A stretch of 64,000 bases of DNA from Deltaproteobacteria bacterium. GTDB taxonomy: Bacteria > Desulfobacterota > Binatia > UTPRO1. Of this stretch, positions 29,022 through 48,809 are shown one piece after another. The stretch's first letter is position 1. Each line of letters opens with the position of its first letter. A model generated the notes under the pieces. That model searched no databases and was not told the origin of the DNA. It saw only the letters and a program-made list of their open reading frames with translations. The stretch lies in the NCBI GenBank assembly GCA_029262315.1, contig JAJCZP010000108.1, positions 1 through 64,000 on the forward strand, read 5' to 3'. Made by a program: the position numbers and the translations under genes.

Positions 29022-29041
29022 TTGAGAATACGAAGTCTCAA
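29022..29041 (+). promoter_or_regulatory. dyad upstream of CBS-gene promoter
   Basis: TTGAGA and TCTCAA are perfect inverted arms with an 8-base spacer, centred about 63 bases before the predicted start of transcription at 29095. The position suits an activator site for the sigma-54-type promoter that follows. Confidence 0.4.
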
Positions 29042-29068
29042 TGGCCCCGAACGTGGGTTGCGACGAGT

Positions 29069-29084
29069 GGGCACGTCGTTTGCT
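29069..29084 (+). promoter_or_regulatory. sigma-54 (-24/-12) promoter of CBS gene
   Basis: GGGCACGTCGTTTGCT matches TGGCACGN4TTGCW at 11 of 12 defined positions, with GG and GC exactly ten bases apart. Predicted start is about 29095, leaving an 18-base leader that contains an AGGAACGGGAG ribosome site before the ATG at 29113. Confidence 0.75.
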
Positions 29085-29112
29085 GTTGTCCTAGCAGGAA
29101 CGGGAGACGCCA

Positions 29113-29610
29113 ATGGACGACGCAATCCGCACCGCACGCGACGTGATGCAAACCAACTTGCTGACAATCTCGGCCGACGCGTCGCTCGTCGAGCTAGAAC
29201 GGTTTCTGCTCCAACATCAGGTGGGAGGTGCTCCCGTCGTTGACGACCAGCAGCTCGTTGGGGTCGTCTCGCGCTCGGACATCGTCCGCCAGCTCGATCT
29301 CGATCGGGGTCTCGCGGACATCCTGGTGGACTATCAACACGATGGCGCACTGCACGCGCCGCGCGCCGCGCTCCGTGAGGACGAATGGATCACGAGCGCC
29401 GCAACCGACCACTTCCGTGGCCTGCGGGTGCGCGATGTCATGATCCGGGACGTGATCACGGCGAGCCCAGATGCGTCCGTGCAGCAGGTCACGCGCACGA
29501 TGCTCGACAATGGCGTGCATCGTGTCCTCATCACCGAAGATGAATTCCTCGTTGGCATCGTGACCAGCACCGACCTGATGCGCCTCGTCGTCGAGTACAC
29601 ATCCCGATAG
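29113..29610 (+). CDS. CBS-domain pair protein
   Basis: A 165-residue protein made of two CBS motifs (about 5-60 and 105-160) separated by an unusually long 40-residue linker. Each half shows the DVM...T...L...V.L..VVSRSDI pattern, the second ending GIVTSTDLMRLV. Stand-alone CBS pairs bind adenine nucleotides (AMP, ADP, ATP) or SAM and signal energy state. It is monocistronic, lying between a hairpin after the hydratase and convergent mtrB-like gene. A strong sigma-54-type promoter precedes it. One of seven CBS pairs in this window. Confidence 0.92.
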   Translation: MDDAIRTARDVMQTNLLTISADASLVELERFLLQHQVGGAPVVDDQQLVGVVSRSDIVRQLDLDRGLADILVDYQHDGALHAPRAALREDEWITSAATDHFRGLRVRDVMIRDVITASPDASVQQVTRTMLDNGVHRVLITEDEFLVGIVTSTDLMRLVVEYTSR

Positions 29611-29625
29611 CGGGTTGCTGCCCGC
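29610..29625. terminator. hairpin at the CBS gene stop
   Basis: GCGGG and CCCGC pair around a TTGCTG loop, beginning in the stop codon. It lies between convergent genes and could serve the CBS gene; there is no T-run. Confidence 0.35.
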
Positions 29626-29668
29626 CGTCGGTCTCGTCGACGCGATCGGGGGACGTCGTGTGTACGCC

Positions 29669-31615
29669 TCAGCCGGCGGAGAATGCGAGCTGCACGGCAA
29701 CCCACCCGAGATGGGCGTCGTAGTCGCGGCCATCGTACAGCCCCTGGTCGAAGCTGAGGTATGCGTAGCCGCCGGTAAAGCTCAGGCGGTCGTTGACCCG
29801 ATAGCCGCCGTCGAGGAACAGCCGGTGCGTCAGGTTGTCGAGCGAGCCGCCCGCGTCGACCAGCGTATAGCGTCCGCCGAGCGTCGTCTGGTCGTTCACG
29901 CGATATCGTGCCGCCAGCGCCGTGCTCAACGACCGTCCGCGAAACTCGATCGGTGCAAAGGCGCCCAGATCGCGCCGTGGCGTGCCGACCTCGTACTTCC
30001 GGTTCACGAACGAGAGCATGCTGGTCACGACCAGGCCCGGTGCGGGGACGGTCACGGCACGCAACTGGCCAATCTGCACATTCACGGAGGTCGTGGAATC
30101 CCCACCAATGTCCGTCCGCTCGTAGTCCTCGTGCGCGAACTCGCCGCGCGCTTCGAAAGTCGTGATTCGGCCCCATCGATACCGTCCCCCGAGGAATCCG
30201 GTGTGGGTCTCGCGGTGTCGATCCCCCAACGTATACTCGTTCAGGAGTTCGTCACGGTCCTCGTCGATGTCCTCGCGGCGGTACCGGTACCCGGCCTTGA
30301 CGAGCAGCGAGCGGTCGGCCCGGATACGCGCCTCGAGCAACAACCGGTGCACGTCGCGCTTCTGGTCCGTTTCCTGAATTCGATCGATCCCGCTCAGGGG
30401 ATCGGTGGCAGCCCCGAGCATCGACACGTCGAGATCACGATGTGCGTGTTCGTACCGATACATCCCGCGAAGCCGGGTCCGCGTCAGGCCCGTATAGCTC
30501 ACATCCAGACGTGCGCGCTGCCGAGTCAGTTGCTTGTCCGTATCGCTCTCGACCACGCTCGTTCCACGCCGCCTCGTTTCCGACCCGTCGCCATCGCGAT
30601 GCTGATCGACGATGGTATAGGTCGTACGAACGCGCAGGTGGCGCGCTGGTGAGAACGCCAGGCCGCTGTGACCGGCGTGGCTCTGTTGCGTCACGGAGAT
30701 GCCGTTTGCCGTCCGCTCGAGGACGGAATCTGACTGCTGCGACGCATCGGCGTCCGCGTCCACCCAATAGTACCGGTAGCCCGCATGTCCGAGCACGTTC
30801 CACGTCGTCGGGGTGGCGATGTCGGCCCCCGCGTGCACCGTGGTCGTGTCGATATCGTCCGTGAAGCGCACGGCCTCCTGCGTCAGGTCGGTACGTACGT
30901 TCGTTTGATGCGTGGTGCTGCGACTCGACGCGTCGGTCCAGCCGGCCAGCAATCGCACATCAAACGGACCGGCCGGAAACACCCCCTCGAAATCGAGGGT
31001 ATCGGAGCGAGTGTCGATGGCCTGGAACGCCGGAAACCGGAAGGCATACGGACTCAAGCTCTCGACGACCGAGGCCTTGAGCAGATTTTCGTCGCCGTCG
31101 CTCGCGCGATGCGCGTAGGTGAGGCGCAGGTTGCTACGGGGGCCGAGTCGCACATCCGCGGCCACATCGGCGTTCGTCCGCACCAGCTCGAACTCCCGCC
31201 CCAGCTGCCCGGGCGCCGCTCTGCCAGCACCCGGACGGCGCAGATGATCGTCGAAGAAGCTTTGCGAACGGCTGAACGCGCCCGTCAGGGTGTAGAGGCC
31301 CCGGCGGCCCCCACGCACATGGATCGTGGCGCCGCCGACGCCGCGGGCATCCTCGATACCTTGGATGCTCGCGGCACCCTCGAAGTAGTTGCCACGCTCG
31401 TCGTGCCCGTCGAAACGGGTTTCGGCGCCGCCCCCGCTGCCGAGGGTGTCGTAGTCCTCACGGAATGCGCCCTCGCTCCCATCGACGCCGGTACCGCGCC
31501 CGACGGCGCGCCCGGTCATACTCATCGTCCACGTCGACCCATCCGTCCCGTCGGGCTCCGCGACCACGGAAGCTGGAAGCCCGAGCACCAGGACGACGAG
31601 CAGGATCCACATCAT
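29669..31615 (-). CDS. MtrB/PioB-like outer-membrane porin
   Basis: A 648-residue beta-barrel. After a signal peptide (MMWILLVVLVLGLPASVVA) the chain alternates short loops and amphipathic strands to a C-terminal strand ending LGWVAVQLAFSAG, as in MtrB/PioB barrels (about 26-28 strands) that sheath a multiheme cytochrome through the outer membrane. I see no cysteine in the mature protein, so the N-terminal CXXC motif of Shewanella MtrB is absent. Its start overlaps the stop of the decaheme gene (ATGA), the coupling expected for an MtrA-MtrB pair. Last gene of the cytochrome cluster. Confidence 0.82.
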   Translation of the reverse strand: MMWILLVVLVLGLPASVVAEPDGTDGSTWTMSMTGRAVGRGTGVDGSEGAFREDYDTLGSGGGAETRFDGHDERGNYFEGAASIQGIEDARGVGGATIHVRGGRRGLYTLTGAFSRSQSFFDDHLRRPGAGRAAPGQLGREFELVRTNADVAADVRLGPRSNLRLTYAHRASDGDENLLKASVVESLSPYAFRFPAFQAIDTRSDTLDFEGVFPAGPFDVRLLAGWTDASSRSTTHQTNVRTDLTQEAVRFTDDIDTTTVHAGADIATPTTWNVLGHAGYRYYWVDADADASQQSDSVLERTANGISVTQQSHAGHSGLAFSPARHLRVRTTYTIVDQHRDGDGSETRRRGTSVVESDTDKQLTRQRARLDVSYTGLTRTRLRGMYRYEHAHRDLDVSMLGAATDPLSGIDRIQETDQKRDVHRLLLEARIRADRSLLVKAGYRYRREDIDEDRDELLNEYTLGDRHRETHTGFLGGRYRWGRITTFEARGEFAHEDYERTDIGGDSTTSVNVQIGQLRAVTVPAPGLVVTSMLSFVNRKYEVGTPRRDLGAFAPIEFRGRSLSTALAARYRVNDQTTLGGRYTLVDAGGSLDNLTHRLFLDGGYRVNDRLSFTGGYAYLSFDQGLYDGRDYDAHLGWVAVQLAFSAG

Positions 31616-32637
31616 GGGTGCCGTCCCCCGCGGAGGAGCTCCTCGATCCCGAGCGGACTGAAGTTCTCGTTCGTGTTCGAGCCGTGCACCTCGAAGTGGC
31701 AGTCGAAACATCGGGCGCCTGCGGACAAGAAGCCGGTGTGATCGACAGCGCCGATCAGCGGGAAGTTCGCATCGAAATGGCACTGCTCGCACAGGCCGTT
31801 GTCGGCCTGGACCAGGAGCTTCTCGACGACCGAGCCGTGCGGATTGTGACAGACCACGCACCCCTCCTCGAGCGCGAAATGCTCGAAGAGGAAGGGCCCG
31901 CGGACCTCCTGATGACACTCGAAGCAACGGGCATCATCACCCTCGAGCTGCCCCCAGCGCGCGGAGGCATGGATGTCGTGGCAATCCGTGCAGCGCATCG
32001 TCCCTTCGGCGACGGGATGGTGGTACTGCAAGGCGAAATCGGCGGCGACCTCTCCGTGGCACTGCACGCAGAACTCCATCTCGCGTGGGCCCTCCCCCAC
32101 CGTCACGTGCGGGTCCGCATCGCGATGCGCTGACATCGCCCGCCAGCTGTACTCGACCACGGGCACGAGTTCCGTCGCCGGGGGACGGGTGTGGAGGGCA
32201 TCGGCGTGGCAGTCCCAGCACGAGACGCCGGCATCGCCGTGCGCACTGGCTTCGAACGACCCGGCCTGCCCGCGGTGACAGTCGAGACAGAGTGTCGAGC
32301 GCTGCATCGGATCGAGTCCTCGCAAGACGTCGTTCCCAAGAATGTCGGCGATCTCGAGCGTGTCGACGTGGCGACTTCCCGCCCCGTGACAGACTTCGCA
32401 GGAGTGCTCGCGCGTCTGCATGACATGGGCGTGCGGGGTGCCAGCGTAGGCCTCGAGCGTTTCCTCGTGACACTCGAGGCACGCCGCCGTCCCGGCCATG
32501 GTTGCGTTCTCGATGACGGGGATCGGCTGCGGCGCGTCGTCTCGCAGCAACGGGCACGCGCACAAGGTCGCGAGGCCGAACGCCACACCGACACGTCGGA
32601 GACGCCTCCCCATGACCAGCTGGATCAGCTGCCGCAT
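31612..32637 (-). CDS. decaheme c-type cytochrome, MtrA/DmsE-like
   Basis: A 341-residue multiheme cytochrome with exactly ten CXXCH motifs, spread from about residue 53 to 320, the size and heme count of MtrA/DmsE/PioA. The N-terminal signal ends in LCAC, suggesting a lipoprotein form. It would carry electrons through the porin encoded by the coupled downstream gene, linking periplasm and cell exterior. An ATG at 32613 is an alternative start. The gene is 15 bases after the nine-heme cytochrome gene, in the same orientation. Direction of electron flow (metal reduction or oxidation) cannot be read from sequence. Confidence 0.9.
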   Translation of the reverse strand: MRQLIQLVMGRRLRRVGVAFGLATLCACPLLRDDAPQPIPVIENATMAGTAACLECHEETLEAYAGTPHAHVMQTREHSCEVCHGAGSRHVDTLEIADILGNDVLRGLDPMQRSTLCLDCHRGQAGSFEASAHGDAGVSCWDCHADALHTRPPATELVPVVEYSWRAMSAHRDADPHVTVGEGPREMEFCVQCHGEVAADFALQYHHPVAEGTMRCTDCHDIHASARWGQLEGDDARCFECHQEVRGPFLFEHFALEEGCVVCHNPHGSVVEKLLVQADNGLCEQCHFDANFPLIGAVDHTGFLSAGARCFDCHFEVHGSNTNENFSPLGIEELLRGGRHP

Positions 32638-32652
32638 CCGCGCCCGTCGATC

Positions 32653-37846: not shown

Positions 37847-37922
37847 AAGGCCGCTTCAACCTCAGCATGCGCCGTCGTGGCCCGCAAGCGGCTCTCAGCC
37901 CTGGGAACGGCACTCGAAGGCT

Positions 37923-37938
37923 TTCTCACCCGTGAGAA
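37923..37938 (+). promoter_or_regulatory. palindrome upstream of CBS-gene promoter
   Basis: TTCTCAC and GTGAGAA are perfect 7-base arms around CC. The centre lies about 63 bases before the predicted start at 37994, the same distance as the dyad before the CBS gene at 29113. A candidate activator site. Confidence 0.45.
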
Positions 37939-37967: not shown

Positions 37968-37983
37968 CGGCGCGGCTCTTGCT
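37968..37983 (+). promoter_or_regulatory. sigma-54-like promoter of CBS-sugar operon
   Basis: CGGCGCGGCTCTTGCT matches TGGCACGN4TTGCW at 10 of 12 positions with correct GG-N10-GC spacing. The predicted start, about 37994, is only two bases before the ATG, so the mRNA would be essentially leaderless; this lowers confidence. Confidence 0.5.
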
Positions 37984-37995: not shown

Positions 37996-38418
37996 ATGAA
38001 TGCCAAGATCGACGATGTCATGATCGCGAACGCGATCGTCGCCACACCCGACGTCACCGTTGGAGAGATCCGCCGGCGAATGTTGGGCGAAGAGATTCAC
38101 GCGCTCCCGGTCGTCAGTCCAGAGGGCGAGCCCATCGGCATCGTTACCTCCACCGACCTCGTCGCGGAGCCACCCGCCGATACGCCCGTTGCGCACATCA
38201 TGAGCACGGGCGTGTTCACCGTGCCGCGCTACGCCGACGTGCACATCGCGGCCCGCATCATGCGGAACCACGGGTTGCACCATGTTGTCGTAACGCACGA
38301 GAAGCAGGTCGTCGGCATCGTGAGTTCGTTCGATCTCATCAAACTCGTCGAGGATCACCGCTTCGTCATGAAGAACGGGCCGACCGAGCCTCGTCGCCGT
38401 TCGCCGCAGCGATCCTAG
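37996..38418 (+). CDS. CBS-domain pair protein
   Basis: A 140-residue stand-alone CBS pair (about 1-58 and 62-120) with DVMIANAIVATPDVTVGEI and IMSTGVFTVPRYADVHIA starts and GIVTSTDLV / GIVSSFDLIKLV ends. A short basic tail follows. Adenine-nucleotide sensing is the family role. It heads an apparent four-gene operon with a glycosidase, ROK kinase and sugar-phosphate isomerase (six-base gap to the next gene), suggesting it ties sugar use to energy state. No Shine-Dalgarno is evident before the ATG. Confidence 0.92.
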   Translation: MNAKIDDVMIANAIVATPDVTVGEIRRRMLGEEIHALPVVSPEGEPIGIVTSTDLVAEPPADTPVAHIMSTGVFTVPRYADVHIAARIMRNHGLHHVVVTHEKQVVGIVSSFDLIKLVEDHRFVMKNGPTEPRRRSPQRS

Positions 38419-38424: not shown

Positions 38425-40533
38425 GTGATTCCTACGGTCGAGGACCTGACGAGTGCGCCGCTGACGCACCGGTTCGGGGACCTCTTCAATCCACCCGCGC
38501 TCACCAATTTTCGCGGCAGCGTGCAGGCTGCGATCGACATCACCGCCATCCGGTGTCTGAACTTCCCGCCGTTCGCCACTTCCGACACGTTTCCACCCGT
38601 GACGTGGTCCGATTCGGTGACGGGCGCGCTCTTCGTCGACGGTCGGTACTTCGCGTCCACCGGCCAGCCGGTCACTTTCGTCTGGCGTCCGGACCGCATC
38701 GTGCGCCGATCCACGTACGACGGCCTCCGGCTACGCTCCGACACGGTGCTTCCCATGGGGAGGACCGCGGCGATCGTTCGCTTACGGGTGAGAAACGTTA
38801 GCGGCGCGTCACGCCGCGTGCATCTGCGGTTCGGGTTCAAGGCGACGATCACGATGAACACGTCGGACTGGGACCGCCCGATCGCACCCGCCGAGTTCGA
38901 CAACGAGGTGAGTGCCGATGCGACGCGCAAGGCACTGCTGTTCGAGGCGCGCCATAGCACGGCGGTCAGTCTCCAAGGATGCGTGCCACTGGCGGACGCG
39001 GTGCGGGCGCACGGCGTCGAGGTCTCCCGCACCCTGCGATCGGGCGCCGTCTGGGAGCTGTACTACCTGAACGTCATCGCCGAAGACGGCGACGAGGCGC
39101 GTGCGACCTACGACGCACTGGCACAGGCGCCAGAGCACGCCTTCGCGCGCGCACGCGACGACTGGAATGCCGAACTCGCGGCGGCGTTCACGCCGGGCAA
39201 CGATCGCTACTCTGGCGCCCTGCCTCGCCTCGAGACCGCCGACGAGGACCTGCAGCACCTCTACCATCAAGGCATGCTCGGGGTCGTCTACTTCAAGCGT
39301 GAGACCCCGCGCGCCGTGACGTCACGTACGTATACGACGCTGATGCCGCGCTACTGGCAAACAATCAGCTGGCTCTGGGACCATCAGCTCTCGTCCATCG
39401 CCCACGTCATGCTCGACCCGTCCGTGACACGAGCAATGTGCGAGCAGTGGATGGCGCTCGACATCCACCAGATCATGGGAACCAACTGGATGACGGGACA
39501 GGGGCTCGGCTCGGCTTACGCGATCAACGACTACGCGATCATCAAGATCGCCCACGACTACGTGCGATGGTCTGGCGACGAGGGCTGGCTCGGCCGCGAC
39601 GTAACGACGGCCGCCGGCACCTCGCACGCCATCATCGACCGGTTGCAGAGCTACGCTGAGCACTGGCAGACACTCCGCACTCCTGCCGGGCTCGCCGACT
39701 ACGGTGGTTTGAGCAACCTGCTCGAGTGCGTGGCCGCCTACACCCACGAGGTGGCGGGTCTGAACGCCGCAAACGTGTACGGACTCCGGGCCGTGGCGGC
39801 CATGCTCGCCGCGACGGGTCGCTCCGCCGACGCGCGTCGACTCGTGGACGAGGCCGAGCGACTCCTCCCGCGAATCCAGACCCTGTACCGGGAGGGTGAG
39901 GGATTCTGGTGCGCACGCCACCGCGACGGCCGCCTCGAGCCGGTGCGACACTGCTTCGATTTCCACACGATCCTGAACACCATCGGCGGTGATCTCAGCG
40001 CCCGCCAGCGAGACGAGATGGTCCGCTTCTTCCGCGAAGACCTGCAAACCCCCACCTGGATGCACGCGCTCTCCCCGCGCGATGCCGACGCCATCTTCGA
40101 CATCCGGCCTGACCATCAGTGGACCGGTGCCTACGTCGCATGGCCCGCCGAGGCGGCCACGGCACTGTTGGGCGCAGGCGAGGTCACCCTCGCACGAGAC
40201 TGGATCCGTGGCCTCGCTCGTACTGCGCGACAGGGCCCGTTCGGCCAGGCGCACTTCGTCGAGGCCGCTGTCGCCCCTGAGGCGGACGGGGCTCGCAAGG
40301 CTCCATCCGAGTTCCCGTTTCTCACTGATTGGGCATGCGTCGCGGGAGGCTCCTGGGTACGTCTCATCGTCGAGGGCATCTTCGGCGTCGACGCCAGCCT
40401 GCGTGAGGGGCTCTCGGCACAGCCACGCATCAAAGCCTTCGATCCCGCGGCCCGCCTGCGAAACGTCCCCTATCAGGGGCGGCTCTACACGATCGATGCC
40501 TCGGGCGTGCACGCACAGGAGCGCGCCGTGTGA
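38425..40533 (+). CDS. six-hairpin glycosidase, GH15/GH63/amylo-1,6-glucosidase-like
   Basis: A 702-residue protein with a beta-rich N-terminal domain (about 1-250) and an (alpha/alpha)6 barrel (about 270-690), the layout of glycogen-debranching, trehalase-like and GH15/GH63 enzymes. Candidate catalytic regions are the WDHQLSSIAHVM and DADAIFDIRPDHQWTGAYVAW stretches; I cannot name the acid and base with certainty. No signal peptide, so intracellular. The GTG start follows the CBS gene by six bases, and its stop overlaps the kinase start. Role in alpha-glucan, trehalose or glucoside turnover is inferred. Confidence 0.65.
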   Translation: MIPTVEDLTSAPLTHRFGDLFNPPALTNFRGSVQAAIDITAIRCLNFPPFATSDTFPPVTWSDSVTGALFVDGRYFASTGQPVTFVWRPDRIVRRSTYDGLRLRSDTVLPMGRTAAIVRLRVRNVSGASRRVHLRFGFKATITMNTSDWDRPIAPAEFDNEVSADATRKALLFEARHSTAVSLQGCVPLADAVRAHGVEVSRTLRSGAVWELYYLNVIAEDGDEARATYDALAQAPEHAFARARDDWNAELAAAFTPGNDRYSGALPRLETADEDLQHLYHQGMLGVVYFKRETPRAVTSRTYTTLMPRYWQTISWLWDHQLSSIAHVMLDPSVTRAMCEQWMALDIHQIMGTNWMTGQGLGSAYAINDYAIIKIAHDYVRWSGDEGWLGRDVTTAAGTSHAIIDRLQSYAEHWQTLRTPAGLADYGGLSNLLECVAAYTHEVAGLNAANVYGLRAVAAMLAATGRSADARRLVDEAERLLPRIQTLYREGEGFWCARHRDGRLEPVRHCFDFHTILNTIGGDLSARQRDEMVRFFREDLQTPTWMHALSPRDADAIFDIRPDHQWTGAYVAWPAEAATALLGAGEVTLARDWIRGLARTARQGPFGQAHFVEAAVAPEADGARKAPSEFPFLTDWACVAGGSWVRLIVEGIFGVDASLREGLSAQPRIKAFDPAARLRNVPYQGRLYTIDASGVHAQERAV

Positions 40534-41480
40534 CCGAGTCAGCAGCCTCACGTGTCCTCACCTTCGATCTCGGGGGCACACGTCTCAAGAGCGGTATCGT
40601 CGAAGGCGGAACGGGAGTCGTGACTGGCTTCGAAGTGACGGAATCGGCACCCGACGTCGAGTCGGCGCTGGCCGCGGTCGGCACCGTGGGCGACCGCCTA
40701 CGCACGGCGACGACGGTCGACGCCGTCGGCCTCTGCCTCCCGGGCCTGCTGGCCGACGACGGCCGCGTCCTCGCTCTGCCCGGCAAGCTCGCTGGTATCG
40801 AGGGACGGAACATCTCCGACTGGCTCCGCCAGCGTTTCGGTCTGACACCGACGGTGCGCAATGACGCGATCGCGTTCGGGGTTGGCGAGGCACGCTACGG
40901 CGCCGCCTGCGGACACGAGCGTGCCGTGGTGGTGACGATCGGAACCGGTATCGGCTGCTGCGTGCTTCAGCACGGCACGCCGATTGGTTCAGGGGCACTC
41001 GGTGGCGGCCTTCTCGGGGGACAGATTCCAATCGCGCCGGCCACGGGCGGGCCAGCAGATACGAGCGGGAGGCATGGTACGATCGAGGCGTTGTGTGCCG
41101 CGGCGCGCATCGTCGACCATGTACGCGCAGCGGGGGGATCCGCAACGTCCGTACCCGCCGTGTACACTGCCTGGCAAGCCGGGGAAGAGGCGGCGCGTCG
41201 TGGCATCGCCGCGTATCAGCGTGATCTCGCACGCGCGCTCGTGGCGCTCGCACACGCGCACACACCGTCGGTAGTCGTGCTCGGTGGTGGTCCAGCCCTC
41301 CCAGAGGCACCGCTTCTGGTCGGTCTCGAGGCGCAGGTGAACGCCGCACTCTGGCCCGGGTACTCCGTCGCAGTCGTGCCGGCGATCCTCGGTGATCGCG
41401 CCGCGTTGGTGGGTCTCGCCGCGCTGGCCTGTTTGCCCGACGCACGCGATCGGCCAGGCGCGACCGCACCCATCCAATGA
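40530..41480 (+). CDS. ROK-family sugar kinase
   Basis: A 316-residue ASKHA-fold kinase with the phosphate-1 motif FDLGGTRLKSGIVEGG (near 10), the catalytic VRNDAIAFGVGEA segment (Asp near 112), and VVTIGTGIGCCVLQHG for ATP binding. The zinc-binding CXCGXXGC motif of classical ROK repressors and glucokinases is not present. Overlaps both neighbours by four bases (GTGA and ATGA), so it is translationally coupled to the glycosidase and isomerase genes. Likely phosphorylates glucose, mannose or a related hexose. Confidence 0.85.
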   Translation: MTESAASRVLTFDLGGTRLKSGIVEGGTGVVTGFEVTESAPDVESALAAVGTVGDRLRTATTVDAVGLCLPGLLADDGRVLALPGKLAGIEGRNISDWLRQRFGLTPTVRNDAIAFGVGEARYGAACGHERAVVVTIGTGIGCCVLQHGTPIGSGALGGGLLGGQIPIAPATGGPADTSGRHGTIEALCAAARIVDHVRAAGGSATSVPAVYTAWQAGEEAARRGIAAYQRDLARALVALAHAHTPSVVVLGGGPALPEAPLLVGLEAQVNAALWPGYSVAVVPAILGDRAALVGLAALACLPDARDRPGATAPIQ

Positions 41481-43234
41481 CGGCGCCAGCACATCGGACA
41501 GGACGGGCATCGAACTACGACAAGCACCCCGTTCTTCCCGGCGGCCCCGCCAGTGCGTGCACGGTTGGGTGGCCGGCGATTGCGGCGCGCCTCCTGGCCA
41601 CCCAAGCTCGGGTCATCACGATCGAGGCGTACGACGGAATACGAGACGCCGACCTGCGGCAACTCGCGGGCATGTTGCAGGCTGCTCTCGTCGTTCGCGC
41701 CAGCGACGCCTTTCGTTCGGAAGACGCCATCGACAAGATGCTCCAAAATACTCTCACCGACGATCCGGTCTTTGGGCGCATGACCGATCGCACGCTCGAC
41801 GACCTGTTCGACCCCGCTTCCTTGGCCGTGATGCGAACGCGCGTGGCAGCAAGCTCTGGGCGAGTGGTTGTCTACGGCGTGGGCGCCACCTTGATCACTC
41901 CCGGCGACGTGTTGGTATACGCCGACCTTGCACGGTGGGAGATCCAACAGCGCCAGCGGCGCGGTGAGGCAGCCAGCCTTGGAAGCACCCGCGTCGACGC
42001 GCGACCGGCCACCAAGTACAAGCGCGGCTACTTCGTCGACTGGCGCCTCTGCGACCGCCAGAAGCAGGCGCTGTTCGATCGCATCGACTTCCTGCTCGAT
42101 ACGACCTTGGACGGAGAACCACACCTCGTCGGCTGGAGCACGATCCGTCGCGCTCTACGAGTGGCGGCTCGTCGACCCCTACGCGTCGTCCCGTTCTTCG
42201 ATCCCGCGCCGTGGGGTGGTCAGTGGATGAAGGAAGTGTGCGACCTCCCTCGCGCGACCGCGAACTATGGCTGGTGTTTCGACTGCGTCCCGGAGGAGAA
42301 TGCCCTTCTGCTCGCGTTCGGCCGTCACCGCGTTGAGATTCCCGCCATCGACCTGGTCTTCGCCGAGCCGGAAGCGCTCTTGGGGGCGCGAACGCGCGCG
42401 CGCTTTGGTGACGAGTTCCCCATTCGCTTCGACCTTCTCGACACCATGGGCGGTGGCAATCTGTCGCTACAGGTCCATCCAGAAGCGTCCTACATGCATA
42501 CGCACTTCGGCGTGCCCTATACCCAGGACGAGTCGTACTATCTTCTCGACGCGGAAAAGGACGCGAGCGTGTTCCTCGGCCTGCGTCCGCAGGTCGACCC
42601 CGCGGCGATGCTCTCCGATCTCCGCGCCGCTCAGGATGGCGGGCCAGCCTTCCCCGTGGAGCGATACGCCAACCGATTTCCAGCCGCCCGCCACGACCAC
42701 TTCCTGATTCCCGCGGGCACTGTTCATGGCTCCGGTGCCGGCAGTCTGGTCCTCGAGATCAGCGCGACCCCGTTCATCTTTACGTTCAAGCTCTGGGATT
42801 GGAATCGGCTCGGCCTCGACGGTCGACCGCGGCCCGTCCATCTGGACCACGGAGCGCGCAACATTCGGTTCGAACGTGACACTGCCTACGCTCGTCTCCA
42901 ACTCATCAACAGGATCGTGCCCTTGGACGCGGGCGACGGTTGGACAGCGGAACGAACCGGCCTGCACGAAGCGGAGTTCATCGAGACGCACCGCCACTGG
43001 TTCCGGAAACGCGTCACACACGACACGCACGGTGAGGTGCAGGTACTGAATCTCGTCGCAGGCGATGAGGCCACTGTCGAATCGCCCGACGGAGCGTTCG
43101 CCCCTTTCGTCGTGCACTACGCCGAGACCTTCATCATCCCGGGCGCGGTGGGACCCTACACGCTGCGCCCCTCCGGCCCGCGATCCGGGACGCGTCACGG
43201 AACGATCAAAGCATTCGTTCGGTTCCCGTCCTGA
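41477..43234 (+). CDS. class I mannose-6-phosphate isomerase with N-terminal extension
   Basis: A 585-residue protein. The C-terminal two thirds is a cupin sugar-phosphate isomerase of the type I PMI family: LSLQVHPEASYMHTHFG gives the zinc His residues, then LIPAGTVHGSG and the late C-terminal cupin. The N-terminal 230 residues are an additional domain (ARVITIEAYDG..., VVVYGVGATLITPGDVLVYADLARWE) that I recognise as occurring in long class I isomerases but cannot assign. With the ROK kinase it could feed mannose or a related hexose into central metabolism. The start overlaps the kinase stop (ATGA). Confidence 0.78.
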   Translation: MTAPAHRTGRASNYDKHPVLPGGPASACTVGWPAIAARLLATQARVITIEAYDGIRDADLRQLAGMLQAALVVRASDAFRSEDAIDKMLQNTLTDDPVFGRMTDRTLDDLFDPASLAVMRTRVAASSGRVVVYGVGATLITPGDVLVYADLARWEIQQRQRRGEAASLGSTRVDARPATKYKRGYFVDWRLCDRQKQALFDRIDFLLDTTLDGEPHLVGWSTIRRALRVAARRPLRVVPFFDPAPWGGQWMKEVCDLPRATANYGWCFDCVPEENALLLAFGRHRVEIPAIDLVFAEPEALLGARTRARFGDEFPIRFDLLDTMGGGNLSLQVHPEASYMHTHFGVPYTQDESYYLLDAEKDASVFLGLRPQVDPAAMLSDLRAAQDGGPAFPVERYANRFPAARHDHFLIPAGTVHGSGAGSLVLEISATPFIFTFKLWDWNRLGLDGRPRPVHLDHGARNIRFERDTAYARLQLINRIVPLDAGDGWTAERTGLHEAEFIETHRHWFRKRVTHDTHGEVQVLNLVAGDEATVESPDGAFAPFVVHYAETFIIPGAVGPYTLRPSGPRSGTRHGTIKAFVRFPS

Positions 43235-43297
43235 GATCCCGCGCGGCACCCCGCCGGAACATGCTCGCAGGTTCGGAATGTCAGCCCTACGGGGATC

Positions 43298-43311
43298 TCG
43301 CAGTTCTGCGA
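43298..43311 (+). promoter_or_regulatory. palindrome upstream of HhH-gene promoter
   Basis: TCGCAG and CTGCGA are perfect arms around TT, ending 40 bases before the sigma-54-type element. The core CGCAGTTCTGCGA matches, at 11 of 13 bases, CGCATTTCCGCGA found upstream of the hemerythrin-CBS operon on the other strand (48727-48739). A candidate shared activator site. Confidence 0.45.
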
Positions 43312-43350
43312 AAATCGGCGATCTTTCCCATGGCGGTCCGGCTTTCAACG

Positions 43351-43366
43351 TGGCGCGCCTCTTGCA
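43351..43366 (+). promoter_or_regulatory. sigma-54 (-24/-12) promoter of HhH gene
   Basis: TGGCGCGCCTCTTGCA matches TGGCACGN4TTGCW at 11 of 12 positions with exact spacing. Predicted start about 43377, giving a 15-base leader that includes an AGGGAGG ribosome site before the ATG at 43392. Confidence 0.75.
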
Positions 43367-43391
43367 GCTTACCGTACAGGGAGGCCGTACG

Positions 43392-44396
43392 ATGATTGCA
43401 GTCGCTCGCAATGTAGACGTGGATTTCCAATCGACACCGGCCGCACCCCTCCCAGAGAACGAGTTGGTTGCCCGAGTGCTCGACGAGGTTGCGGATCTCC
43501 TCGCGACCCAGGAGGCGAAGCCCTACCGTTCCCAAGCCTTTCGCCGCGGCGCCGCCACGGTGCGTTCGCTCGACATGCCCGTCGCCGACGTGCTCGAGGC
43601 GCGTGGTAGCGAGGGGTTGGCGCGCCTCCCACACATCGGTGCGGGTTTGGCCCGCGCCATTGCCGAGTTCGTTTCGACCGGACGTCTACGCCGGCTCGAG
43701 TGGCTTCGGGGACACGTCGACACCGAGGCCCTGCTTACGACCATTCCTGGCGTCGGCCCGGCGCTGGCTCATCGCATCCACGAACACCTCGGAGTGCATA
43801 GTCTCGAGGAACTCGAGAGCGCGGCCCACGATGGCAGGCTCGCTCACCTCGCCGGCCTCGGCCCGCGACGGGTGCAGAGCCTCAAAGATTCGCTCGCACA
43901 ACGCCTGCGGCGAGCACGCCTGCACGGACTCCGCCCCAGCGCGGCGCTGCCGATCGCGGAACTGCTCGACGTCGACCGCGAGTATCGCAGTCGTGCCGCA
44001 GCGGGCAACCTACACCTCGTCACACCTCGGCGATTCAATCCTCAGCATCGGGCATGGCTACCGATACTCCACACCGAGCGCGGTGACCGTCGCTATACCG
44101 CCTTGTTCTCGAACACCGCGCGTGCGCACACGCTCAACAAGACGCACGACTGGGTCATCATCTACGCCGAGGACGAGGGTGCGGACCGCCAGGCGACTGT
44201 GGTCACGGAGCGTAGCGGCCCACTCGAGGGTTCGCGTGTCGTCCGTGGCCGGGAGCGCGAATCGTTGCAGTACTATCGCACGGACGCAGCCGTGGCGGCC
44301 GAAACCGCACGCGCGCGGAAGGCCGCGGAGGCCATGCGGGCACAGCTCGAGCCAATGTTCCGCGCACACGCCGAGCGGGAGTCAGGTCTGCACTGA
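43392..44396 (+). CDS. helix-hairpin-helix DNA-binding protein, PolX N-domain-like
   Basis: A 334-residue protein whose first 180 residues match the N-terminal half of family X DNA polymerases: a 8-kDa-like helical domain (ENELVARVLDEVADLLATQEAKPYRSQAFRRGA) followed by HhH motifs (LARLPHIGAGLARAIAEFV, LTTIPGVGPALAHRIHEHL, LAHLAGLGPRRVQSLKDSL). The nucleotidyltransferase domain is missing; the remainder, including FNPQHRAWLPILHTERGDRRYTALFSNTARAH, is not a domain I can name. Probably binds nicked or gapped DNA without polymerising. A strong sigma-54-type promoter and ribosome site precede the ATG; the CBS gene 64 bases downstream may be co-transcribed. Confidence 0.75.
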   Translation: MIAVARNVDVDFQSTPAAPLPENELVARVLDEVADLLATQEAKPYRSQAFRRGAATVRSLDMPVADVLEARGSEGLARLPHIGAGLARAIAEFVSTGRLRRLEWLRGHVDTEALLTTIPGVGPALAHRIHEHLGVHSLEELESAAHDGRLAHLAGLGPRRVQSLKDSLAQRLRRARLHGLRPSAALPIAELLDVDREYRSRAAAGNLHLVTPRRFNPQHRAWLPILHTERGDRRYTALFSNTARAHTLNKTHDWVIIYAEDEGADRQATVVTERSGPLEGSRVVRGRERESLQYYRTDAAVAAETARARKAAEAMRAQLEPMFRAHAERESGLH

Positions 44397-44460: not shown

Positions 44461-45084
44461 ATGTTCTCTATCTGGGGAGTAGGGACAGCCGCCAGCCCCT
44501 ACCTGCCAAAGAGTCCCGAGCGCCGACTGCGCGTCGCCCCGGCCAGCCGAAGCCTTCCTGCCAGACAACACGTCGCCGGAGATGCGACCTCGGAGACGTC
44601 ACAGCGTGGGGCCTCCGCCGGTGCGCCGCGTCACTCCAAGCACGCCGCAGCCTATGAAGCAGCAAGCGAGACGCATCCGAAGCGGCGTCCAGCAGCGACC
44701 GCCGCCGATTTGATGTCGGCTCCGGTCATCACCTTGGCATCCGAAGCGTCTCTCCGAACCGCCGTAGCGCTGTTCCGCGAGCATCGTTTCCGCCACGTGC
44801 CGGTATGCGAACCCTCCGGCATGCTCGTCGGTATCCTCTCGGATCGTGACCTTCTGCGCGACGGCGTGCTAGCCGATTCCGCGCTGATTGCCGAGGTCAT
44901 GACGACGCCGGTTCTTACTGCTCATCCCGAGACGGTGGTGCGGGAGATCGCACGGGTGATGTTCGAAGAGCATCTCGGTGCGATTCCGATCGTTGACGTT
45001 GCTGGAGCCTTGGTGGGGATCATCACGCGAAGCGACATCCTCCGCGCGTTGATCAACCGCGCTCCGCTCGAACTCTGGGTGTAG
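44461..45084 (+). CDS. CBS-domain pair protein with disordered N-terminus
   Basis: A 207-residue protein. Residues 1-80 are low-complexity, Ser/Arg/Pro-rich and probably disordered; the CBS pair is residues 82-200 (DLMSAPVITLASEASLRTAV and EVMTTPVLTAHPETVVREI starts; GILSDRDLLRDG and GIITRSDILRALI ends). A later in-frame start would remove most of the odd N-terminus; no internal ATG with a ribosome site stands out, and an ATG at 44713 falls too close to the first CBS motif. Same strand as the HhH gene. Adenine-nucleotide binding is the family expectation. Confidence 0.85.
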   Translation: MFSIWGVGTAASPYLPKSPERRLRVAPASRSLPARQHVAGDATSETSQRGASAGAPRHSKHAAAYEAASETHPKRRPAATAADLMSAPVITLASEASLRTAVALFREHRFRHVPVCEPSGMLVGILSDRDLLRDGVLADSALIAEVMTTPVLTAHPETVVREIARVMFEEHLGAIPIVDVAGALVGIITRSDILRALINRAPLELWV

Positions 45085-45131: not shown

Positions 45132-46595
45132 CTAGCGACGGCCTGACCCAGTTCCGCCGCCCCCGGGGGTAGGCACTGGCGACGGTGACACGTTTTGCAA
45201 CTGCGCGAACTCCTCCTCGACGGCGCCGACGAGATCGTGCAAGTCCGGCATCGCCTCCCAGTCGGCGTTCAGGCCCCAGTGCAATCCGCCATCGTAGCTG
45301 AACAGCGCGATACCGAGCGCCTGGCCGCCAAACAGCGGTACCAGAGGATAGATTTCGACCATACGCGCCCCGAGCAGATACAGCGGGCACGGGGGGCCGG
45401 GAACGTTGGTCACGACCAGGTTGTAGGCGCGCTGATTGGCCGCGAACCGGACGAGCTGCACAATGAGTCCGGTGGCGACGCGATCGCCGATTTCCTCGAT
45501 CAGTTCCGCTCCGTGCGCGACCCGCGAATGCTTCAAGCGCGCCGTCACTTCGATCGTACGTTGCAATCGTCTCACAGGGGACGACTCCCCGATGGGAATT
45601 GGCGCCAGAAAGTTTACGACGCGATTGCCGGGCATGCCGCGTTCCTCGGACCCTCGAATGCTGACCGGCACCATGACGCGAAAGACGCTCTCGGGAGTCG
45701 CCCGGTGTCCCCGCCAGCCAAGAAAGCGGCGCACCGCCCCAGCGACGGTCGCCAGCACGACATCGTTCAAGGTTCCTCCAGCCGCCTTGCCGAGCGCGCG
45801 CGCTTCCGCGATGTCGAACCGTGTCCAGTCGTAGCGCCGATAGGGACCGATGTCCGCGTTGAGCGGCGTATCGGTCGTACCCGAGAAGCCGGCGGCCATG
45901 GTTTCGCCCACGCTGAGGACGGATTCCCGAACCGAGTTCGCGACTTCGATCGGCCGACTGAGTGCTCGGGGCACCGCGCAGGCCACGTCGAACGGTAGCG
46001 ACGCGCGACGCCAGATCTCGTCGCCAAGTAGACGACTCCGACTGGGTTGCGGCTGCGGAATCCAGGGATGCTTCGGCGGCATTGCGGTCCCGGGTTCCAG
46101 TCGGAGGATGGCGGCCAGGATGTCGATGCCCGCGATGCCGTCGACCATGCAGTGGTGCGCCTTCAAGACGAGCGCGAAGCGTCCGTTTCGCAGTCCTTCG
46201 ACGACCCACATCTCCCAGAGGGGCTTGCCGCGATCGAGTTTCTGCGAGAAGAGTCGCGCCGCCATGCGCTTCAACTGACGGACGTCTCCAGGCGGCGGCA
46301 GTGCGGTATGGCGCACGTGGTAGCGCAGGTTGAACCGGGGATCGTCGACCCAGACCGGGTGTTCGAAGCGCGGAATCCACGCGAGCTTCTGACGGAACCG
46401 CGGGGCATCATGCAGCGCGAGATCGATGAACGTCCGAATGCGTTCGGTGTCGATTGCGCCCGCCTCGGTCCGCAACGACTCGCCTTCGAAGATCGCCACG
46501 GCACCGACATGCATGTGCACGCTCGCGTCCTCGATCGCTAGGAACGCCGCATCGGTTGCCGATAGTCGGTCGTATCTCCGGTAGGCCATTGCCAT
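45132..46595 (-). CDS. wax ester synthase / diacylglycerol acyltransferase (WS/DGAT)
   Basis: A 487-residue acyl-CoA:alcohol/diacylglycerol acyltransferase that makes wax esters or triacylglycerol for storage granules. The catalytic HHxxxDG motif is HHCMVDG at 147-153. The N-terminal LSATDAAFLAIED and the later PLNADIGPYRRYDW and NDVVLATVAGAVRRFL blocks match the family, as does NLVVTNVPGPPCPLYLLGA. Ends in a Gly/Pro-rich tail. Convergent with the CBS gene at 44461 and followed upstream by an SDR gene on the same strand. Substrate preference cannot be read from sequence. Confidence 0.93.
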   Translation of the reverse strand: MAMAYRRYDRLSATDAAFLAIEDASVHMHVGAVAIFEGESLRTEAGAIDTERIRTFIDLALHDAPRFRQKLAWIPRFEHPVWVDDPRFNLRYHVRHTALPPPGDVRQLKRMAARLFSQKLDRGKPLWEMWVVEGLRNGRFALVLKAHHCMVDGIAGIDILAAILRLEPGTAMPPKHPWIPQPQPSRSRLLGDEIWRRASLPFDVACAVPRALSRPIEVANSVRESVLSVGETMAAGFSGTTDTPLNADIGPYRRYDWTRFDIAEARALGKAAGGTLNDVVLATVAGAVRRFLGWRGHRATPESVFRVMVPVSIRGSEERGMPGNRVVNFLAPIPIGESSPVRRLQRTIEVTARLKHSRVAHGAELIEEIGDRVATGLIVQLVRFAANQRAYNLVVTNVPGPPCPLYLLGARMVEIYPLVPLFGGQALGIALFSYDGGLHWGLNADWEAMPDLHDLVGAVEEEFAQLQNVSPSPVPTPGGGGTGSGRR

Positions 46596-46675: not shown

Positions 46676-47533
46676 TCATCGACGGGGTTCCGTGGGCGAG
46701 TCCGACTCGCGACTTCCCGACAGCCAACGGGAGAACGACATGCCCCAGTGCAGGACCGAGTCTGTGAGGCCGGGCGTCAGGGCCGCTAGCTTTTCGAGCG
46801 TGGCCGCGCCGGGCGGCACGGCTAGCTCGACGAGACGGAAGCGCACCGCGGCGAAAATCGCCCAGACTACCCAGGCCGGCGACATGTCGAACATCGCAGG
46901 CCAAAGGGAGCGCACGACCTCGCTCTGGGTTGCCTGTTCGGCCATCGGGGTATCGACGACTCCCGGCATGATGAGCGCGACGTGCACGCGGCTATCGTGC
47001 AACTCGGTGCGCAGCGCCTCGGTCAAGCCCACGAGTGCGAACTTCGTCGCCGCGTAGCCGCCGAGGGGGCTGACCCCACGGCGCCCCGCGAGTGAGTCGA
47101 CGTTTACGACGACACCGCCGTCGGGCTGCGTTTGCATGATGGCGACCGCGTCCTGCATGACCGCCAGCGCGCCGAAGACGTTTACCGCCAACATCGCGTG
47201 CAGGTCTCCGGCCTCGAGATCGAGCACGGTCGCGGGAATCAGGACGCCAGCGTTGTTGACGACGATGTCGATACGCCCATAGTGGCGTTGCACTTCGTGA
47301 AGCGCGGCCCGTACCTCGGCACGGTCGGTTACATCGACGGGAACGACCAACGCATCGCCGCCGCGTTCTCTGATCGTCGTCGCAACGTCATCGAGTACTT
47401 CACGTCGGCGTGCGAGCAGGGCCACCCGTGCACCGGCGGCACCGAACGCCTGTGCCGTCTCACGCCCGATTCCACTGGAGGCGCCTGTGACAGCAACCAC
47501 CTTTCCGGCGAAGAATCCATCGAGCCATGCCAT
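46676..47533 (-). CDS. short-chain dehydrogenase/reductase (SDR)
   Basis: A 285-residue classical SDR: cofactor motif TGASSGIG (about 17-24), NNAG near 92, catalytic Ser in VNVDSLAGRRG and YAATK near 160. Arg residues after the second strand (LARRREVL) favour NADP(H). A C-terminal extension of about 80 residues with hydrophobic patches is typical of membrane-associated SDRs acting on lipids or long-chain aldehydes, which suits its place next to a WS/DGAT gene (supply of fatty alcohol is one inference). ATG 47533 chosen with AAGGGA upstream. Confidence 0.88.
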   Translation of the reverse strand: MAWLDGFFAGKVVAVTGASSGIGRETAQAFGAAGARVALLARRREVLDDVATTIRERGGDALVVPVDVTDRAEVRAALHEVQRHYGRIDIVVNNAGVLIPATVLDLEAGDLHAMLAVNVFGALAVMQDAVAIMQTQPDGGVVVNVDSLAGRRGVSPLGGYAATKFALVGLTEALRTELHDSRVHVALIMPGVVDTPMAEQATQSEVVRSLWPAMFDMSPAWVVWAIFAAVRFRLVELAVPPGAATLEKLAALTPGLTDSVLHWGMSFSRWLSGSRESDSPTEPRR

Positions 47534-47607: not shown

Positions 47608-47627
47608 ATGATCGCCGCGGCGATCAT
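47608..47627. terminator. 20-base perfect palindrome at the CBS gene end
   Basis: ATGATCGCCGCGGCGATCAT is its own reverse complement over 20 bases and overlaps the CBS stop codon. It could be a terminator stem (no loop, no T-run) or a dimeric-regulator site serving the SDR gene 75 bases downstream. Neither can be decided from sequence. Confidence 0.4.
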
Positions 47628-48097
47628 TCCGGGCTCGTGTCGTCGCCCGGTGTCCGCTCGACGAGCGCTAGCGCGATAAAGTCACTTTCGGTCACGATGC
47701 CCACGAGTTTTCCCGCGTCGACCACCGGGAGGCAGCCGATCTGGTGCTGCAACATGAGGGCGGCCGCCGTTGCAACAGGAGCGTCGGGGCGGATCGTGGT
47801 CACGTCGGTCGTCATGACCTCCTTGATCGCGAGGCTCGCCATCATCTTGTCCTGCGCAACCGTTCCGTAGCCGAGAGCCTTGGCGAGCGCCCCCCGAAAC
47901 ATGTCGCGTTGACTGAGGATGCCGACGACCGCACCGTCCTCGTCCAAGACGGGCAGGTGCCGAAAACGCTTCTGTGTCATAACCTGGTCGGCAAGCGAGA
48001 GTTCGTCGTTTCGTCCGAGCGTCTGGACCGCAGGAGCCATGAGGTCACGCACACGCATCCCGATCTTCTGTTCGTTCATCGCCGCATGGGCAGTCAT
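47624..48097 (-). CDS. CBS-domain pair protein
   Basis: A 157-residue CBS pair (about 13-70 and 88-148) with DLMAPAVQTLGRNDELSLA and EVMTTDVTTIRPDAPVATA starts and GILSQRDMFRGAL / GIVTESDFIALAL ends. Start ATG overlaps the stop of the hemerythrin gene (ATGA), so the two are made together from the sigma-54-like promoter at 48690-48705. Energy-state sensing is the family expectation; pairing with a hemerythrin suggests oxygen and energy signals are read together. Confidence 0.92.
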   Translation of the reverse strand: MTAHAAMNEQKIGMRVRDLMAPAVQTLGRNDELSLADQVMTQKRFRHLPVLDEDGAVVGILSQRDMFRGALAKALGYGTVAQDKMMASLAIKEVMTTDVTTIRPDAPVATAAALMLQHQIGCLPVVDAGKLVGIVTESDFIALALVERTPGDDTSPE

Positions 48098-48675
48098 GCT
48101 TCCCTCCTGAGGTGGCTCGCGAGCGCGAGCAAGCGGTCGTACCCGTCTTCGCCGTCCGCGGCGTGTCGATGCAGCAAGAAGCGATGCACGACATCGCGTT
48201 CGTCTTCCTCCGAAAGCTCCCTTTCGACCATCGGAAACAAGTAGCGAGCCTCCTGCTCCATGTGCGCGTTGAGATGCGCACAATAGGCCCGGGCAGCTTG
48301 CCGAAAGCGGGCGGCAACGTCCGGATCGTCTGAGGCGAGTTCGGGCAGAAGGTTGGCAATCGCGTCGAGCAACGCTGCCTCCTCCCGATGTTCCTCGATA
48401 GTGTTCTGGAGCGACGGCTCCGACGATGCTAGTCCCTGGCGCTCGAGGGCCGCGAGCAGGACGATGTTCTCCTTGGCATGGTGCTGAGCTGCGAACGACC
48501 GCAAAAACACGAGGGCGTCTCGCCAGACGTCTCGATCGACCTGGGCGGTCTTGTCGAGTCCATGCTCGAGGGTCTTGACGACATCCAGGATCAAGTCGTG
48601 CTCTGCGCTGAGGATCTCTGTAGGGGTCGCGCTCGCGCGACGGGGGCGTCGTCCCAGCGACTTTCCGGTCTCCAT
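48094..48675 (-). CDS. hemerythrin-like (HHE) di-iron protein
   Basis: A 193-residue four-helix-bundle protein. Iron ligands are visible: His26 (AEHDLI), His65 or His66 with Glu69 (QHHAKEN), His96 (EEHREE), His134, His138 and Glu142 (AHLNAHMEQE). These match the HHE cation-binding repeat pattern, used for oxygen or nitric-oxide sensing, transport or iron handling. The N-terminal 15 residues are basic. First gene of a two-gene unit with a CBS protein. No Shine-Dalgarno is clear, and the predicted transcription start is only about four bases upstream. Confidence 0.9.
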   Translation of the reverse strand: METGKSLGRRPRRASATPTEILSAEHDLILDVVKTLEHGLDKTAQVDRDVWRDALVFLRSFAAQHHAKENIVLLAALERQGLASSEPSLQNTIEEHREEAALLDAIANLLPELASDDPDVAARFRQAARAYCAHLNAHMEQEARYLFPMVERELSEEDERDVVHRFLLHRHAADGEDGYDRLLALASHLRREA

Positions 48676-48689
48676 AGCCGTCTAGCCAG

Positions 48690-48705
48690 TGCAGGAACCG
48701 TTCCA
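48690..48705 (-). promoter_or_regulatory. sigma-54-like promoter of hemerythrin-CBS operon
   Basis: On the minus strand TGGAACGGTTCCTGCA matches TGGCACGN4TTGCW at 10 of 12 positions with exact GG-N10-GC spacing. The predicted start (about 48679) is four bases before the ATG, implying a near-leaderless mRNA, which tempers the call. Confidence 0.5.
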
Positions 48706-48726
48706 CCGGCCGCTAACTACGGGTTG

Positions 48727-48739
48727 TCGCGGAAATGCG
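48727..48739 (-). promoter_or_regulatory. dyad upstream of hemerythrin-CBS promoter
   Basis: CGCATTTCCGCGA on the minus strand shares 11 of 13 bases with CGCAGTTCTGCGA in front of the HhH-gene promoter (43299-43311). A second small dyad, TCCCA-TTTC-TGGGA, lies at 48760-48773. Candidate activator sites. Confidence 0.4.
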
Positions 48740-48809
48740 GAGGCGTCGACACTCCACTCTCCCATTTCTGGGAATCGTGACTTCGGGGCGCGCTCGCGAC
48801 TATGCGACG

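Follow-up and report, generated by a model that had tools for sequence, protein, structure and literature searches.

The first 64,000 bases (the window) of an 88.7-kb contig, JAJCZP010000108.1 or C108, from the 5.92-Mb draft genome of an uncultured, soil-type member of the Binatia carry four -24/-12 promoter elements, A to D, each accompanied by the same palindrome, TTCNCA-N4-TGNGAA, farther upstream. We consider it fairly probable (about 0.72) that the region is a low-oxygen or energy-stress island run by the sigma-54 factor RpoN and one NtrC-family response regulator, for which a receiver-AAA+-Fis protein encoded on contig C43 is the best candidate. An oxygen/energy regulon is the best reading of the data and a well-supported one, and such a signal fits because the members include a cbb3 oxidase, a bc-type complex, PFOR, NQR, and USPs; we infer oxygen as the signal, together with the direction of regulation. 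The promoters, the shared site, its helical phasing, its conservation, and the gene content were established computationally.

Sigma-54 promoters

An earlier note on this DNA had proposed the four elements, and all were found where it placed them, each with GG-N10-GC spacing and 10 or 11 matches to the 12-position consensus: A at 29069-29084 (GGGCACGTCGTTTGCT, 11/12), B at 37968-37983 (CGGCGCGGCTCTTGCT, 10/12), C at 43351-43366 (TGGCGCGCCTCTTGCA, 11/12), and D at 48690-48705 on the minus strand (TGGAACGGTTCCTGCA, 10/12). As the note had also claimed, each precedes a gene or operon with a CBS pair (genes at 29113, 37996, 44461, and 47624; here as elsewhere, domain calls are Pfam matches). Scores come from a position weight matrix (PWM) that we wrote from the published consensus and did not train, with a maximum of 19.8 bits and a main threshold of at least 12 bits.

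29069..29084, plus strand: promoter A, GGGCACG-N4-TTGCT, 14.8 bits; predicted +1 at 29095; 18-nt leader to 29113
37968..37983, plus strand: promoter B, CGGCGCG-N4-TTGCT, 12.2 bits; predicted +1 at 37994; 2-nt leader
43351..43366, plus strand: promoter C, TGGCGCG-N4-TTGCA, 17.2 bits; predicted +1 at 43377; 15-nt leader
48690..48705, minus strand: promoter D, TGGAACG-N4-CTGCA, 13.9 bits; predicted +1 at 48679; 4-nt leader

Element A is the top-scoring sigma-54 site upstream of 29113. Judged from sequence, A to D are almost certainly sigma-54 promoters. Gene calling and the enrichment figures rest on a 1.37-Mb sample of the genome, part of which was picked for matches to the sigma-54 pattern, to activators, or to CBS domains. 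Sites of at least 12 bits occurred there at 0.56 per kb in the 200 bp upstream of genes versus 0.03 per kb in coding DNA (~20-fold). With spacers of 2, 3, 5, or 6 instead of 4, or with permuted or reversed matrices, the upstream density was 0.01 to 0.09 per kb and the enrichment was gone. Start codons lay 13 to 18 bases past the motif in 13 cases and 5 to 12 bases past it in none (1 and 2, respectively, for the four spacer controls combined), and they thus cluster 2 to 7 bases downstream of the predicted +1. The 88.7 kb of C108 hold 10 sites of at least 12 bits versus 4 in the 232 kb of contigs C40 and C71, a comparison set taken mainly for length. RpoN itself is encoded once (C265:96040-96513; E = 1.5e-63).

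A raw count of the -24/-12 pattern over the whole genome showed no excess (233 matches versus 255 for the reversed pattern), and the sigma-54 signal is therefore visible only by position. The raw count is also what would favor the explanation that consensus-like strings near CBS genes arose by chance and were found by looking. That explanation, whose probability we put at next to nothing, is refuted by the positional enrichment, the spacing specificity, and the start-codon pile-up, as well as by the held-out enhancer enrichment and the conserved blocks in relatives described below.

Leaders of just 2 to 7 nt are frequent at these promoters (B, D, 72951+, and 79664+ on C108 and 7747- on C43), and this lineage may often make sigma-54 transcripts that are nearly leaderless.

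A shared palindromic enhancer

The palindrome TTCNCA-N4-TGNGAA, an enhancer or upstream activating sequence (UAS), is present at all of promoters A to D and at most other C108 promoters. It was counted with at most one mismatch, and copies were scored with a separate UAS PWM.

29013..29028, plus strand: enhancer of A, TTCCGA-GTCT-TGAGAA, centre -74.5; PWM 16.8
37892..37907, plus strand: distal enhancer of B, CTCTCA-GCCC-TGGGAA, centre -94.5; PWM 17.0; 31 bp from the proximal copy
37923..37938, plus strand: proximal enhancer of B, TTCTCA-CCCG-TGAGAA, perfect, centre -63.5; PWM 17.5
43297..43312, plus strand: enhancer of C, CTCGCA-GTTC-TGCGAA, centre -72.5; PWM 15.4
48759..48774, minus strand: enhancer of D, TTCCCA-GAAA-TGGGAG, centre -87.5; PWM 19.0
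48726..48741, minus strand: second, weak copy at D, 33 bp away from the strong one, TCCGCA-TTTC-CGCGAC, 3 mismatches, centre -54.5; below the PWM threshold

Dyads upstream of the four promoters had already been noticed, and they are indeed present and shared at all four. Their register was partly wrong: the centres lie at -63.5 to -94.5, and the dyad chosen for D (CCGCATTTCCGCGA) is not the best copy there, 48759-48774 scoring higher. An exact inverted repeat in A (TTGAGA-N8-TCTCAA) differs from the shared element.

Because the palindrome was first spotted by eye in C108 upstream sequences, the decisive enrichment tests leave that contig out. Its density upstream of sigma-54 sites is 2.24 per kb overall, 1.35 per kb without C108 (versus 0.0125 per kb in coding DNA), and 3.43 per kb in relatives (versus 0.018 per kb in coding DNA), an enrichment of more than 100-fold. 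The reversed pattern, and versions with N3 or N5 spacers, did not occur upstream of sigma-54 sites at all. Over the whole genome there were 104 matches versus 50 for the reversed control. The centres keep step with the DNA helix when measured from the predicted start (period of ~10.7 bp, p = 2e-4, n = 30, pair members not being independent), and copies are often paired: 23 of ~39 pairs within 150 bp are spaced 29 to 34 bp apart, with a second group at 41 to 42 bp. At some loci, including 72794-/72951+ on C108, one enhancer pair is common to divergent promoters.

It could be argued that the palindrome is instead a CRP/FNR-type site acting separately, with the sigma-54 sites serving other activators. 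Its 4-bp spacing resembles that of FNR-type sites, and a CRP-family gene on contig C46 has the palindrome upstream. However, the FNR consensus TTGAT-N4-ATCAA had no match upstream of 59 sigma-54 sites, and the palindrome is more than 10 times as dense near sigma-54 sites as in intergenic DNA overall. Its location at -63 to -155, its phasing with the helix, and its tandems three turns apart fit an enhancer-binding protein and not a class I or II site of a sigma-70 promoter, and we consider this explanation very improbable.

Conservation in relatives points the same way as the sigma-54 enhancer reading. In three same-family genomes, a wax ester synthase (WS/DGAT) homologue keeps both enhancers and GGGCGCG-N4-TTGCT as conserved blocks; the DNA between the blocks has diverged, and the start codon lies 17 to 18 bases past the motif. 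The orthologue of a WS/DGAT-CBS fusion in relative G003 has a sigma-54 site of 15.9 bits and a UAS pair at -64.5/-95.5. Sigma-54 sites with enhancers also precede PFOR, hemerythrin, and CBS genes in further families of the class. Footprinting of operon B across relatives was dropped, as its 702-aa protein has no homologue in 394 other genomes of the phylum; PFOR was used instead and worked. The hemerythrin of unit D has only weak homologues within the family.

A candidate activator and its probable signal

The protein that we regard as a strong candidate, and as likely to bind the palindrome, is encoded in an operon on C43 that begins with a CBS gene and continues with the receiver-AAA+-Fis protein and then cytochrome c, Rieske, and cytochrome b genes; its identity as the activator and its binding to the UAS are predictions from sequence. 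Its GAFTGA and Walker A (GESGVGKE) motifs are intact. The operon has a promoter of the form CGGCACG-N4-TTGGA, with a 2-nt leader and an enhancer pair 41 bp apart. This promoter (C43:7747-7762, minus strand) has TTGGA instead of TTGCA at -12, a form that recurs in two relatives (L311:1466-1481 and L312:1070-1085), and it is perhaps weak by design. Two same-family genomes have a -24/-12 of this type before their orthologues, and in one of them the enhancers are likewise 41 bp apart. Orthologues with 59 to 76% identity were found in 14 of the 16 class genomes searched, the next matches being at 55% or below, and a genome named Candidatus Binatia carries one at a class-typical 65%. The recognition-helix stretch LSSLYRK is invariant in every orthologue printed, and several orthologues have a CBS or USP gene directly upstream.

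Alternatively, the promoters and the palindrome are real and are bound by another enhancer-binding protein, for example, a partner of the PAS kinase at 49171 or of the GAF kinase at C108:83870. Both kinases are encoded in the island, one of them behind a sigma-54 site of its own; the genome has ~26 proteins with a sigma-54 activator domain, and it lacks the protoglobin kinase that adjoins the C43 orthologue in relatives. What argues for the C43 protein is that, among activator genes with scorable upstream DNA, paired sites occur only at its operon and none besides it reached 9 bits (best, 8.6), and that UAS copies recur before several of its orthologues. An NtrC-like response regulator in the window (11828-13240, minus strand) was rejected as the activator; its GAFTGA loop is degenerate (GAITDA), and it is probably unable to activate sigma-54, judging from this motif. 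We therefore rate another activator as unlikely.

In five relatives (G003, G004, G476, G179, and G477), the kinase adjoining the C43 orthologue has a protoglobin-HisKA-HATPase architecture, and an alignment of the G004 globin with 5OHE, a solved globin-coupled kinase, shows the proximal-His position to be conserved. No protoglobin domain was found in the present genome, which would mean that it has either lost this sensor or put another in its place, our guesses being the PAS kinase at 49171 and the GAF kinase at C108:83870. It is possible that the signal is not oxygen but nitrogen, carbon, or phosphate starvation, the genes forming a general dormancy set. CBS and USP proteins and storage lipids also belong to starvation responses, a glutamate dehydrogenase is encoded in the C108 island, and the sensor in this genome is a guess. 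Against this stand the cbb3 oxidase, the bc-type complex, and the hemerythrins of the regulon, the globin-coupled kinase beside the activator in relatives, and the hypoxic induction seen in the parallel NmpR system (below), so that we consider a starvation signal unlikely, if by no means far-fetched.

Several findings weigh against a single oxygen-responsive regulon under the C43 protein. One is the missing protoglobin kinase. Tracing through relatives covered the C43 protein alone, and another conserved enhancer-binding protein could bind the site. A few enhancers, that of D (-87.5) among them, do not fall into the helical register, and UAS copies also occur where there is no sigma-54 site (C108:34083). 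In several relatives, PFOR genes have a UAS and no good sigma-54 site, and G154, which is without a C43 orthologue, has a PFOR region without a UAS, a single negative case. The absolute site densities given above are inflated by the partly selected sample.

Under the oxygen/energy reading, sigma-54 polymerase would wait at the -24/-12 of each operon, and the regulator would bind the palindrome, usually as a pair of dimers separated by three turns of the helix, on the promoter's face of the DNA. Low oxygen would lead to its phosphorylation and oligomerization and then to open complex formation. The same paired sites at the C43 operon would provide autoregulation. Outputs would include the high-affinity cbb3 oxidase, the bc-type complex of the activator operon, and oxygen-binding hemerythrins; fermentation and maintenance functions (PFOR, phosphofructokinase, and Na+-NQR); storage lipid synthesis; and USP and CBS sensors of adenine nucleotides. 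More speculatively, and in our view rather doubtfully, CBS and USP proteins may sense nucleotides and in turn act on the AAA+ activator, so that low oxygen and a low energy charge would both be needed to turn the regulon on. If true, this would be a two-input switch inside a sigma-54 system, conserved across a whole uncultured class.

Extent of the regulon

The genes of the four units in the window are as follows.

29113..29610, plus strand: CBS-pair protein, 165 aa, unit A; Pfam CBS, 7.5e-29
37996..38418, plus strand: CBS-pair protein, 140 aa, heading the sugar operon (unit B); Pfam CBS
38425..40533, plus strand: 702-aa protein of the sugar operon; no Pfam match
40530..41480, plus strand: ROK-family sugar kinase/regulator, operon B; Pfam ROK, 4.8e-27
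41477..43234, plus strand: 585-aa protein, final gene of operon B; no Pfam match
43392..44396, plus strand: HhH protein, 334 aa, unit C; Pfam HHH_8 and HHH_5
44461..45084, plus strand: CBS-pair protein, 207 aa, second gene of unit C; Pfam CBS
48094..48675, minus strand: hemerythrin-domain protein, 193 aa, unit D; Pfam Hemerythrin, 6.6e-16
47624..48097, minus strand: CBS-pair protein, 157 aa, unit D, after the hemerythrin; Pfam CBS
46676..47533, minus strand: short-chain dehydrogenase, third gene of operon D; Pfam adh_short
45132..46589, minus strand: wax ester synthase/DGAT, fourth gene of operon D; Pfam WS_DGAT

The earlier note had placed CBS genes, a hemerythrin, a sugar operon, and an HhH gene in one sigma-54 regulon, and the shared upstream sites do join them. 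Its extent was drawn too small, as more C108 operons and other contigs belong. At least nine operons across C108:29-84 kb have such promoters; in a gene-by-gene scan of the contig, the operon heads scored above 11 bits and nearly all other genes below 10. The added C108 promoters are 49234-, 64598-, 72794-, 72951+, 79664+, and 83819+, of which only the first lies in the window. The promoter at 64598 heads an operon of an 87-aa gene, a P-type ATPase, and NQR; 72794 precedes a BON-like gene (named by eye); 72951 heads a USP-PFOR-DHOD-TreT operon; 79664 heads an FNR-like/phosphofructokinase operon (named by eye); and 83819 precedes the GAF kinase. On other contigs, the same architecture stands before a cbb3 oxidase operon, a USP-CBS fusion, a cytochrome-biogenesis gene, an abhydrolase/WS-DGAT/acyltransferase operon, a CBS gene beside a porin-like gene, diiron oxygenase-like genes, the CRP-family regulator, and the candidate activator's own operon.

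CBS genes are over-represented in regulon operons (7 of 29, hypergeometric p = 1.2e-4; outside C108, 3 of 22, p = 0.014). They are not its defining members, contrary to the CBS-centred regulon first proposed, given that only those 3 of 22 outside C108 lie in detected operons.

Relation to described systems

Sigma-54 systems in general combine -24/-12 promoters, RpoN, AAA+ activators with GAFTGA, paired dyads, and helical phasing. All of these recur here; the differences are enhancers that lie near the promoter (often at -63 to -106) and leaders of often only 2 to 7 nt.

The earlier note knew of no described regulon of this type, but the NmpR regulon of Myxococcus xanthus is closely similar (PMC11841059). 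NmpR is an NtrC-type regulator of an oxygen-utilization regulon and has a CBS gene at the head of its own operon; its binding sites are pairs of GCGCA-N5-TGCGC upstream of sigma-54 sites, mostly with gaps of 14 to 15 nt, and its targets include CBS, USP, Cu P-ATPase/cbb3, and HemN/hemerythrin genes (PMC11841059). The sensor, NmpU, carries a protoglobin domain, and hypoxia induces mxan_4236 (PMC11841059; PMC6211767). The M. xanthus system also includes a hybrid kinase, NmpS, and a receiver protein, NmpT; a single receiver-domain protein is encoded here at 48810. The present system is alike in its NtrC-type regulator and sigma-54, in an autoregulated activator operon starting with a CBS gene, in paired palindromes before sigma-54 sites (here mostly 31 to 33 bp centre to centre, a gap of 15 to 17 nt), in its CBS, USP, Cu P-ATPase with cbb3 oxidase, and hemerythrin targets, and in a protoglobin kinase sensor, seen here in relatives only. 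Both also have a wider pair spacing at the self-regulatory promoter (nmpU there, the CBS-activator operon here). In contrast, the site here is TTCNCA-N4-TGNGAA, GCGCA-N5-TGCGC being absent from A to D and not clearly enriched near sigma-54 sites; the regulon adds PFOR, NQR, trehalose synthase, phosphofructokinase, wax ester synthases, and BON; the protoglobin kinase is missing from this genome; and the activator stands directly after the CBS gene and before the bc-type complex. The best matches to the C43 protein in five metagenome-assembled genomes labelled Myxococcota are 44 to 48% identical, the level of paralogues. Because the binding site departs from the NmpR consensus and the kinase is missing here, we do not file the system as NmpR, of which the C43 regulator is no more than a possible orthologue. 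By analogy, the system would work like NmpR, with a different binding site and a wider, DosR-like content.

DosR (DevR) of Mycobacterium tuberculosis is a NarL-type regulator that acts at sigma-70-family promoters in response to hypoxia sensed by heme kinases. The content of its regulon is similar in having a CBS protein, a USP, a wax ester/TAG synthase, a P-type ATPase, a phosphofructokinase, and an APH-AAA protein. The 20-bp DosR box had no match upstream of sigma-54 sites at up to 5 mismatches. On C108, 69953-71629 (minus strand) encodes an AAA_33-kinase protein, with Pfam covering the AAA_33 part, which by eye we take to be like the mycobacterial Rv2004c of the DosR regulon.

Among predicted sigma-54 targets in Planctomycetia, COG0589 (UspA) is enriched and COG0517 (CBS) is listed; as far as the available part of that source goes, it defines no enhancer site or activator (PMC12316311).

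Taken together, the data define a binding site and point to a candidate activator for an oxygen/energy regulon in a lineage represented here solely by metagenome-assembled genomes, and they indicate that sigma-54 and an NtrC-type regulator can control a gene set like the M. tuberculosis DosR dormancy set. This suggests that Myxococcus NmpR is one case of a wider sigma-54 low-oxygen strategy in which CBS proteins are tied to the activator operon.

Other features of the window

Further regulon-related features lie in the right-hand part of the window.

49234..49249, minus strand: candidate sigma-54 promoter, AGGCATC-N4-TTGCT, 11.3 bits, inside the kinase gene, for the receiver protein
49337..49352, minus strand: enhancer copy, centre -121.5 of the 49234 promoter
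49370..49385, minus strand: enhancer copy, centre -154.5 of the 49234 promoter; 33 bp from the 49337 copy
48810..49166, minus strand: single receiver-domain protein; Pfam Response_reg
49171..50931, minus strand: PAS-PAS histidine kinase (Pfam), candidate sensor
50951..50966, plus strand: enhancer copy before the WS/DGAT-CBS fusion, centre -106.5 of the weak -24/-12
51039..51054, plus strand: weak candidate -24/-12, CGGCATT-N4-GTGCT, 7.2 bits; in-frame GTG at the predicted +1 (51065)
51050..52972, plus strand: WS/DGAT-CBS fusion protein (Pfam); start uncertain, 51050 or 51065
56051..64000, minus strand: Na+-NQR genes and a P-type cation ATPase; promoter just beyond the window at C108:64598-64613, UAS at 64735-64750

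A homologue of the PAS-PAS kinase sits after PFOR-DHOD in same-family genomes. The WS/DGAT-CBS fusion, a storage-lipid enzyme with a nucleotide-sensor tail, is present also in the same-family genomes UTPRO1 and SJ588. For two CBS genes, at 52951 and 55457, the C108 scan found no sigma-54 site upstream, and an Rfam scan of the window found no RNA family. Two further sigma-54-like sites, 13661-13676 (minus strand) and 13879-13894 (plus strand), are without the TTCNCA enhancer and presumably answer to another activator; one of them lies 57 bp before a 606-aa gene without a Pfam match.

The enhancer copy at 34083-34098, whose 16-mer recurs at C48:1848, lies without a good sigma-54 site upstream of a gene set (29669-34898, minus strand) in which an outer-membrane beta-barrel-like protein stands by 10-, 9-, and 4-haem cytochromes and a NapC-like protein, and which resembles an outer-membrane electron conduit.

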